In this document: piece by piece, positions 29,206 through 54,692 of the stretch
Numbering within the stretch: the first letter of the stretch is position 1
How the letters are laid out: each line of letters starts with the position of its first letter
Assembly (NCBI GenBank): GCA_029210625.1
Contig: JARGFU010000013.1
Coordinates: forward strand, 124,001-188,000
Source of the DNA: Deltaproteobacteria bacterium
GTDB taxonomy: Bacteria > Myxococcota > Myxococcia > SLRQ01
DNA length: 64,000 bases
Direction: 5' to 3'
Notes under the pieces: generated by a model
What the model saw: the letters and a program-made list of their open reading frames with translations, nothing else
Databases searched by the model: none
What the model was told of the DNA's origin: nothing
Position numbers and translations under genes: made by a program

Positions 29206-32200
29206 ATGAATCGACTCGCCAAGCTCGGCGCGGCCTGCATGGTCGGCCTCCTCGCCCTCGGCAGCATCGGCTGTCCCAAGGATGAACCGGCCCAGAACCC
29301 GGAGATCGTCTCCTTCTCCGCCACGCCCGCGGGGATCGTCGACGGTGACAGCAGCACCCTGGCCTGGGAGACCCTCCACGCGGTCTCCCTGAGCCTCGTC
29401 GATGACGCGGGCAACACGATCGACATCTCCTCGGCCGGCGTCGCCAACGGCGACGTCGCGGTGAGCCCGAGCGCCACCACCGAGTACACCCTGACCGCCA
29501 CCGGCGGTGAGGACACCACCCCGGCGACCGCGCGCCTGACCATCACCGTGGCCCCCGCCGACGTCTGCGGCGACGGCTCGGTGACCGGCCCCGAGGCCTG
29601 CGACGACGGCAACACCGCCGCCGGCGACTACTGCGCCGCCGACTGCTCCGCCGTGACCGGCCTGTGCGGCGACGGCACCGCCCAGACCAACGAGGCCTGC
29701 GACGACGGCAACACCGCCGGCGGCGACTACTGCTCGGCCGACTGCCAGACCATCGACGGCTTCTGCGGCGACGGCACCGCCCAGGCCAACGAGGCCTGCG
29801 ACGACGGCAACACCACCGACGGCGACTACTGCTCGGCCGACTGCCAGACCGTCGACGGCTCCTGCGGCGACGGCACCACCCAGAGCAACGAGGCCTGCGA
29901 CGACGGCAACACCGCCGACGGGGACTACTGCTCGGCCGACTGCCAGACCATCGACGGCTCCTGCGGCGACGGCACCCCCCAGGCCAACGAGGCCTGCGAC
30001 GACGGCAACACCGCCGACGGGGACTACTGCTCGGCCGACTGCCAGACCTCCAACGGCGCCTGCGGTGACGGCACCGTCGAGACCTTCGAGGCCTGCGACG
30101 ACGGCAACACCGTGGACGGCGACTACTGCGCCGCCGACTGCATGGGCGTGACCGGCTCCTGCGGCGATGGCACCACCCAGACCAACGAGGCCTGCGACGA
30201 CTCCGGCGAGTCCGCCACCTGCAACGCCGACTGCACCGCCCACGCCTGCGGCGACGGCGTCTACAACGTCACCGCCGGCGAGGTCTGCGACGACGGCAAC
30301 ACCGTGGACGGCGACTACTGCGCCGCCGACTGCCTCTCCGTGATCGGCGCCTGCGGCGACGGCACCCAGCAGACCAACGAGGCCTGCGACGACGGCAACG
30401 TCGATGCCGGCGACTACTGCGCCGCCGACTGCATGAGCGTGACCGGCTCCTGCGGCGACGGCACCCAGCAGACCAACGAGGAGTGCGACGACGGCAACAC
30501 CGATCCGCTGGACGGCTGCGCCGCCGACTGCACCATCGAGATCCCCGGCTCCGAGTGCGCCTTGGCCTACGACCTGAACACCAACGGCGCCGTCGGCGAC
30601 GGCTCCTTCACCTGGTCGGCCGACACCACCAACTTCACCGCCAGCAACAACGCCAGCTGCACGGTCTCCGGCAACAACCCCGAGGCCTTCGCCTACTTCA
30701 TGGCCCCGGCCGATGGTGACTACCTCGTCGCGGTCCCCTCCACGGCGACCTTCAACGTCGTGCTGTGGGTCTGGGACGGCGTCTGCGATTCCACCTCCAC
30801 CGTCCTCAGCTGCGTGAACGGCACGACCGCCGACGGCAACGAGTCCCTCATCATCAGCCTGGTCCAGGGCCAGGAGATCTTCATCGTGGTCGATGGCTAC
30901 GGGAACTTCACCGACAACTGGGGCACCTTCGACCTCACCGTCGAGCCCGACATCTGCGGCGACGGCTACGTCTCGGCCAACGAGGACTGCGACGACATGG
31001 GCGAGTCCGCCACCTGCAACGCCGACTGCACCGCCCACGTCTGCGGCGACGGCGTGCAGAACGTGACCGCGGGTGAGGCCTGCGACGACGGCAACACCAC
31101 CGCCGGCGACTACTGCGCCGCCGACTGCCTCTCCGTCACCGGCTCCTGCGGCGACGGCACCACCCAGACCAACGAGGACTGCGACACCTCCGGCGAGTCG
31201 GCCACCTGCGACGCCGACTGCACCTTCGTGGTCTGCGGCGACTCGGTCACCAACGCCGCCGCCTCCGAGGCCTGTGACGACGGCAACACCGCCGCCGGCG
31301 ACTACTGTGCCGCCGACTGCCTGAGCATCACCGGCTTCTGCGGCGACGGCGCCGTCCAGACCAACGAGGTCTGCGACGACACCAACACCACCGCGGGCGA
31401 CGGCTGCTCCGACGACTGCATGGTCGTCGAGGCGGGCTACGTCTGCCCCACCCCGGGCTCGGCCTGCCGGGCCATCACCTGCGGCGACGGCTTCATCGAC
31501 TGGGGTGAGTCCTGCGAGGACGGCAACACCGCCGACGGCGACGGCTGCTCCGCCACCTGCGCCCTCGAGATCGCGGCGCCGGGCGCCTCGATCGTCGCCA
31601 CCGAGTCCATCGACGCCACCGACATGCAGTGGGCCCGCCCGGGCTCGACCTGCGGCGCCACCTCGCCGGCGGATCACTACTTCGACGCCGTCTGGATCGA
31701 GAACAACACCGGCTACCCGCAGCTGCTGACCGCCACCGCGGCCTGGAGCGGCGACGGCTTCCTGCACGTCTTCTACGATCCCTTCGATCCGGCCGACCTC
31801 GCCAACTGCATCAAGGGTGACGACGACTTCAACGGCACCAGCGGCAGCCAGATCGTCGAGATCTACATCATGCCCGGCGAGAGCCTGGTCCTGGTGGCCT
31901 CGACCTGGGGCGGCGGCGCCGTGACCGGCGCCTACTCCCTCGACATCGCCACCGACGCCGTGGTCTGCGGCGACGGCTGGCTCACCGGCATGGAGGCGTG
32001 CGACGACTCGAACATCGCCGCGGCTGACGGCTGCAACGACACCTGCAGCCTGGTCGAGGACGGCTACGTCTGCGACGTGCCGGGCAACGCCTGCGTCTCG
32101 GTCCCGGGCGCCCTGGTCATCAACGAGCTCGACTACGACCAGACCGGCTCCGACACCACCGAGTTCGTCGAGATCTTCAACGGCACCGCCGCCGACGTGG

Positions 32201-54692: not shown

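Follow-up and report, generated by a model that had tools for sequence, protein, structure and literature searches.

To our knowledge, most of what is known about contact-dependent recognition in myxobacteria comes from TraA. The lamin-tail domain (LTD) is widespread in secreted bacterial proteins, and LTD, nidogen-like (NIDO), choice-of-anchor J (J) and proprotein-convertase P-domains are also found in enzymes and other secreted proteins. TraA of Myxococcus xanthus is composed of a PA14 domain, a Cys-rich stalk and a MYXO-CTERM tail (PMC3325183, PMC3820747). RemA, described as a cell-surface gliding adhesin, is a homologue of the Flavobacterium johnsoniae protein to which a module of the present array was matched (PMC10994853). 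The array analysed here consists of five giant lipoprotein genes in which a lipobox, Ig domains and an LTD are combined with NIDO, J and P-domain modules.

Domain composition of the five genes

The window, i.e. the whole stretch of DNA that was analysed (64,000 nucleotides, G000:C13:124001-188000), stems from a genome (G000) of 6.1 Mb in 64 contigs. The genomes with which it was compared appear to belong to the class Myxococcia. The following features of the array were annotated, with coordinates counted from the first letter of the window; single Ig domains were located with a home-made Ig profile, LTDs with PF00932:

29206..32655 (+): gene 1, 1149 aa; lipobox SIGC, one Ig, Cys-rich repeats, C-terminal LTD, without tip
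29299-29544 (+): single Ig of gene 1
32107..32652 (+): LTD of gene 1; a different LTD group, with G000:C31
32778..36725 (+): gene 2, 1315 aa; lipobox GLGC, one Ig, Cys-rich repeats, LTD, J tip
32871-33116 (+): single Ig of gene 2
35715..36224 (+): LTD of gene 2
36225..36722 (+): tip of gene 2, choice-of-anchor J / Cleaved_Adhesin-like; NF038128, 40.0 bits
36899..42565 (+): gene 3, 1888 aa; lipobox ATGC, 13 Ig, two inserted NIDO, LTD, J tip
39515..40078 (+): NIDO within Ig10 of gene 3
40916..41464 (+): NIDO within Ig13 of gene 3
41597..42079 (+): LTD of gene 3
42080..42562 (+): tip of gene 3, choice-of-anchor J; NF038128, 36.8 bits
42824..48487 (+): gene 4, 1887 aa; lipobox TTGC, 13 Ig, two inserted NIDO, LTD, P-domain tip
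45440..46018 (+): NIDO within Ig10 of gene 4
46856..47413 (+): NIDO within Ig13 of gene 4
47546..48022 (+): LTD of gene 4
48023..48484 (+): tip of gene 4, proprotein-convertase P-domain; PF01483, 29.2 bits
48822..54692 (+): gene 5, 1956 aa; lipobox STGC, 13 Ig, two inserted NIDO, LTD, NIDO tip
51441..52016 (+): NIDO within Ig10 of gene 5
52854..53411 (+): NIDO within Ig13 of gene 5
53544..54062 (+): LTD of gene 5
54063..54689 (+): tip of gene 5, NIDO; 36% identical to the internal NIDOs of genes 4 and 5

Third-position G+C amounted to 96-98% in all five frames, which marks them as coding. An earlier note on the same DNA had described five adjacent same-strand genes of 1149-1956 residues with a lipobox each; the lengths proved exact, every protein starts with a signal peptide, and the five lipobox signals are those listed above. 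The lamin-tail-like domain that it had placed in every gene was recovered in 5/5 (43.9-51.7 bits; gathering cut-off 34.3), the Cys-rich middle of genes 1 and 2 was identified as TIGR02232/DUF4215 repeats by Pfam and NCBIfam scans, and the count of 13 Ig-like domains in genes 3-5 was reproduced exactly with the home-made profile. The tips that had been assigned to genes 1 to 5 (none, J, J, P-domain and nidogen-like) were each confirmed by domain scans or by homology. Both NF038128 scores exceed the curated cut-off of 30; the PF01483 match in gene 4 (cut-off 21) covers profile positions 52-86 only; and the gene 5 tip was called NIDO by its homology to the internal NIDO modules, not by PF06119 score. 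PF06119 was matched in genes 3, 4 and 5 with 30.8, 30.7 and 43.6 bits (cut-off 25), the best stretches being the internal copies. PPC-like stretches were seen by eye in genes 1 and 2, for example at about residue 480 of gene 1, where Pfam reports none. No nuclease or other enzyme domain attached to the LTD was found in the array proteins. The architecture of the five genes is far beyond chance.

The stalk of genes 3-5 had been described as 13 Ig domains. This count stands, but two inserted modules had been overlooked, as evident from Pfam, the Ig profile and AlphaFold: Ig10 and Ig13 of each gene are split by a NIDO of about 190 residues. The N-terminal half of the split Ig covers approximately profile positions 1-45 of 82 and is followed by the NIDO and by a C-terminal half from about position 40 to 82; the same split was found in relatives. 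An AlphaFold2 model of Ig10 with its NIDO in gene 4 (45305-46144), built from 48 relatives, was obtained with a pLDDT of 95.5 and a pTM of 0.92, and Foldseek returned no meaningful PDB match for it. Because genes 3-5 all hold two internal NIDOs, this module is not special to the gene 5 tip, and because the stalk bears NIDO modules of its own, the picture of an inert stalk that merely carries a binding tip falls short.

When the Ig-NIDO profile was compared with PDB sequences, one chain was matched (8gl6_D, 'RemA', residues 48-252, E 1.6e-19). Adhesins of the RemA/RemZ type resemble the array proteins in being long surface proteins with a NIDO-like module of about 200 residues. This module is N-terminal in 8gl6_D, whereas in the array it is located inside an Ig or at the C-terminus; furthermore, RemA/RemZ-type adhesins depend on type 9 secretion with a C-terminal signal, whereas the array proteins combine an N-terminal lipid anchor with an Ig stalk and an LTD. 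No type 9 secretion C-terminal domain was found in the five proteins by Pfam and NCBIfam scans. The nested Ig-NIDO links the array to a homologue of a Bacteroidota gliding adhesin, so a common ligand type is possible. The J domain in the tips of genes 2 and 3 is shared with choice-of-anchor J / Cleaved_Adhesin proteins (NF038128, PF07675; PDB 4itc), the gene 2 tip giving a weak match to Lys-gingipain (4itc, E 0.003). In the array, in contrast, the anchor is the N-terminal lipobox, J follows the LTD, and no protease domain was found. All five genes have the LTD in common with bacterial LTD proteins (PF00932), but unlike in these proteins generally, the LTD of the array family is nearly always a C-terminal platform before a NIDO, without an enzyme domain.

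TraA itself shares with the array the character of a myxobacterial surface protein, a Cys-rich stalk and a variable recognition module. Thus, a TraA-like kin recognition system with a polymorphic tip would agree with the myxobacterial host, the Cys-rich stalk of genes 1 and 2 and the variable terminal module. In TraA, however, the recognition module is N-terminal (PA14) and is accompanied by TIGR04201 repeats and MYXO-CTERM, none of which was found in the five proteins: Pfam gave no PA14 match at E 0.1, and NCBIfam returned TIGR02232 instead of TIGR04201 and no MYXO-CTERM tail, the C-termini being folded domains. Neither was an OmpA domain (TraB-type partner) found among the 20 neighbouring ORFs scanned, and tip type, compared with one genome per species, is fixed across species outside the host's taxonomic family (see below). 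Such a system therefore appears very improbable. MYXO-CTERM-like tails (Cys motif, hydrophobic stretch, Arg) were noticed on L156 and L154 (G000:C11 and C14), so that G000 appears to have MYXO-CTERM sorting too, of which the array makes no use.

Relation of genes 1 and 2 to genes 3-5

Genes 3, 4 and 5 share 61-71% identity as far as the LTD extends, which in the gene 4 frame is residue 1768; their similarity stops there, and the parts beyond are unrelated. Genes 1 and 2 are 68% identical over lipobox and Ig1. Between the two sets, identity amounts to 37-48% for lipobox plus Ig1 and to 27-41% for the LTD. The retention of anchor and stalk that had been claimed for all five genes therefore applies within genes 1-2 and within genes 3-5, and much less between the sets. 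The same first Ig had been noted in all five genes, but the single Ig of genes 1 and 2 is closest to Ig2 of genes 3-5 (46-60% identity), not to their Ig1 (37-44%). A common lamin-tail stem was borne out as far as the presence of an LTD in all five genes is concerned, but not for gene 1, whose LTD belongs to another group, together with that of the amidohydrolase-containing lipoprotein of G000:C31 (support 100/100). Gene 1 is thus not a simple case of tip loss; its LTD is of other origin. From these Ig and LTD affinities, genes 1-2 and genes 3-5 are, at the level of sequence, two tandem-duplicate sets joined by general resemblance only, not one shared stem. Placement of the LTDs of genes 1-5 in one clade was rejected (p 2e-51). 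The lipoprotein of G000:C31 (L159:687-5306) carries Cys-rich repeats, an amidohydrolase-like domain and a gene 1-type LTD.

The terminal module across Myxococcia

Genomes of the class (58, then 147) were searched, and the loci were fetched and checked for domains. The search model (A2) excludes the tip; hence, loci were not picked by tip type. The family was defined by a lipobox, Ig repeats with at least one Ig split by a NIDO, and a subsequent LTD; genes 3-5 belong to it, whereas genes 1 and 2, with one Ig and no NIDO, do not. Twenty Myxococcia genomes that were examined contained it, as a rule in tandem arrays. The arrays comprise 2-6 genes, mostly three, in several genera, and that in the window is one of them. 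Many relatives also have the lipobox, and the stalks are longer in the copies of G047, probably Vulgatibacter incomptus. This Ig/NIDO/LTD lipoprotein family is class-wide and new to the literature searched, in which nothing was found on DUF4215, NIDO plus LTD or Ig lipoproteins of myxobacteria. Arrays were located beside a recJ-like gene at a conserved chromosomal place in L139, L140, L141, L149, L150, L151 (genus g43), L137, L059 and G022, which indicates that they are old and vertically inherited there. Three or four tandem LTDs make up most of L062:7349-9448 (G000:C6) and of L066:9558-12191 (G031).

All intact copies outside the host's taxonomic family (63/63, from 18 genomes) end in LTD plus NIDO; the sole copy there without a NIDO after the LTD is truncated by a contig end. 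Inside the host's taxonomic family, which was sampled by two genomes (one of them 85% complete, in 550 contigs), the tips of five copies were NIDO in one (gene 5, the only one of genes 3-5 with a NIDO directly after the LTD), J in one (gene 3), P in two (gene 4 and G001:C337) and none in one (G000:C1). Replacement of the C-terminal module at the LTD boundary, as proposed in the earlier note, is therefore real, but on present data it is confined to one lineage. The broader proposal of a tip exchanged on a retained anchor and stalk holds for the locus in the window but is not supported as a rule for the rest of the class, where tip type is fixed per position. The note had suggested looking for tip swaps at the same locus in relatives and had named a constant tip per position as evidence against exchange; this constancy is what the positional orthologues outside the host's taxonomic family display, so exchange is not the family's general way. 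In the simplest reading, the LTD plus NIDO end is ancestral; gene 5 has retained it, whereas the other copies have exchanged or lost it. Such an ancestral end agrees with the NIDO tree but is not proven by it: all NIDO tips may form one clade (p 0.35), and the second internal NIDO may equally have been a recent source of the tip of gene 5 (p 0.27). An origin of this tip as a copy of the first internal NIDOs was rejected (p 0.001).

Genes 2 and 3 have 55% identity in their J tips, as compared with 41% in their LTDs and 38% in lipobox plus Ig1; these two genes thus share the tip more closely than the rest. A J domain over the cut-off was found in just one further G000 protein, which is peptidase-like and carries MYXO-CTERM (C14), and a J-type end on a Cys-rich lipoprotein of the sister genome G001 (L163) scored 29.5 bits against the cut-off of 30. 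Gene 4 shares its P tip, at 52% identity, with the C-terminus of a G000:C6 lipoprotein (L061:5767-9144), whose unrelated stalk is made of many acidic, Cys-containing (MopE-like) repeats in series. With J and P on other lipoproteins, the same few modules cap different stalks. In G001:C337, the P tip again follows the LTD; one clade of this tip and that of gene 4 was marginally rejected (p 0.043, long branches), and at this p value a single older acquisition of P with vertical inheritance of the tip may still apply. An AlphaFold model of LTD plus P tip was of low quality (pLDDT 70, pTM 0.49). A region of tandem giant genes (1887-2247 aa) with many choice-of-anchor J domains each was noted in G047 (G047:C1:30947-86966, the L067-L086 region).

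Array positions are orthologous in seven genomes of genus g43, with identities of 69-77% within a position and about 30% between positions. For the three positions, identities of stalk/internal NIDO/LTD/tip were 77/77/70/56, 71/69/65/65 and 69/70/59/53; divergence increases from stalk and internal NIDO to LTD to tip in positions 1 and 3 and more weakly so in position 2. dN/dS lies below 1 or close to it throughout. Simple tandem duplication accompanied by neutral accretion of domains, in which J and P would be chance acquisitions from other secreted proteins without a defined role, could account for these ratios, for the presence of J and P modules elsewhere in G000 and for the few tip changes, limited to one taxonomic family. 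It accounts poorly for open frames of 1.1-2.0 kcodons with a strong coding signal and conserved domains, and for tips that changed independently, in several copies, at one and the same boundary, and is regarded as unlikely. Somewhat less doubtful, though still improbable, is a structural scaffold: the proteins would be parts of an extracellular matrix or coat, their C-terminal modules packing together or with polysaccharide, and the tips interchangeable β-sandwich caps without partner specificity. That every module is an all-β repeat domain, that the terminal module can be missing (gene 1, G000:C1) and that internal NIDOs are as common as terminal ones would all fit; the retention of one specific terminal module in 63/63 relatives speaks against it, and the faster evolution of tip and LTD is more in keeping with binding than with a generic cap.

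In conserved codons, genes 4 and 5 showed silent differences of 0.15 over Ig1-9, far from the random value of 0.35. For the LTD the figure was 0.35, which is at random level (0.32), and for the NIDOs 0.23-0.24, near the 0.27-0.28 of random (p 2e-4). This pattern would fit homogenisation of the stalk, with C-terminal parts that are older or exchanged. Segment trees of genes 3-5 gave no significant conflict, so that recombination of modules between these genes was not seen by phylogeny; that gene conversion keeps the stalks alike is thus suggested by the silent sites, not proven.

Transcription, function and neighbourhood

A consensus sigma-70 promoter scan gave no match. A shared TTGAC..TA motif was found by direct pattern, and the following sites were recorded together with hairpins:

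29091..29119 (+): weaker promoter-like site of gene 1, TTGACA-N17-TATTCG
32702..32736 (+): strong hairpin between genes 1 and 2, terminator-like, without a T run
36785..36813 (+): promoter-like site of gene 3, TTGACG-N17-TACCTT, 114 bases before the gene
42594..42615 (+): hairpin after gene 3, terminator-like
42618..42646 (+): promoter-like site of gene 4, TTGACG-N17-TACTTT, 206 bases before the gene
48521..48552 (+): hairpin after gene 4, terminator-like
48614..48643 (+): promoter-like site of gene 5, TTGACA-N18-TACCTT, 208 bases before the gene

The pattern TTGACN-N16-19-TANNNT has just three matches on both strands of the 64 kb, and these precede genes 3, 4 and 5; no promoter candidate was found for gene 2. 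Stable hairpins lie 3′ of genes 1, 3, 4 and 5. At least genes 3-5 are thus probably transcribed separately and, with a promoter-like site each, could be used singly.

The lipobox, the predicted rod length, the RemA-type NIDO and the relation of J to cleaved adhesin make N-terminally lipid-anchored surface stalks of the adhesin or recognition type the best reading of the array proteins, with a probability of about 60%. Surface exposure, ligand binding and a tip type that sets the partner are what we infer on this basis. The lipobox would fix the N-terminus in the outer membrane, and the C-terminus would be projected outward by a rod, built from 13 Ig domains in genes 3-5 and from disulfide-rich repeats in genes 1 and 2; the NIDOs in Ig10 and Ig13 may serve as side-mounted binding modules and the LTD as a platform that bears the terminal module. 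For the family of genes 3-5, the inherited C-terminus would be the LTD plus NIDO found across Myxococcia, the terminal module having been replaced at the LTD boundary in the host lineage by J in gene 3 and by the P-domain in gene 4, while gene 5 would keep the ancestral tip. Lipoproteins that face the periplasm and tie the envelope together would carry the same lipobox, which alone holds no information on the membrane side. With about 4 nm per Ig domain, however, 13 of them would span about 50 nm, which is longer than a periplasm, and the NIDO module is common to the homologue of a Bacteroidota cell-surface adhesin; a periplasmic orientation is accordingly given very little weight.

Beyond the reading as surface stalks, it is tentatively proposed, as a possibility more doubtful than the stalks themselves, that the array belongs to a class-wide family of lipid-anchored receptors in which one lineage has combined cassette replacement of the terminal module at the LTD boundary, gene conversion of the stalk and own promoters (for genes 3-5 at least) into a small genome-encoded exchangeable repertoire, with more binding modules nested in the stalk Ig domains. 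The array adds another candidate surface family across Myxococcia, of constant inherited architecture, with one lineage in which the tip was replaced several times at one boundary. Gene 5 on the one hand and genes 3 and 4 on the other, with the same stalk and different tips, offer a clean comparison for whether the tip decides binding.

The neighbours of the array in the window are housekeeping genes. The recJ and CcoG-like ferredoxin genes that flank the arrays of relatives were considered as functional partners and judged to be housekeeping, and the EpmA-like gene after gene 5 was dismissed as a conserved partner, being outside the shared synteny. An 846-aa protein (9442-11982, −) has a long N-terminal part without a Pfam match and a C-terminal DsbA/thioredoxin-like domain. 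A Rhomboid domain (PF01694, 1.2e-25; 19657-20076, +), followed by TPR repeats, lies in the ORF 17029-21090, which is adjoined by a LolA-like lipoprotein-sorting gene (21133-21918; PF17131, 2e-58); this region near the array is possibly an envelope-sorting neighbourhood.
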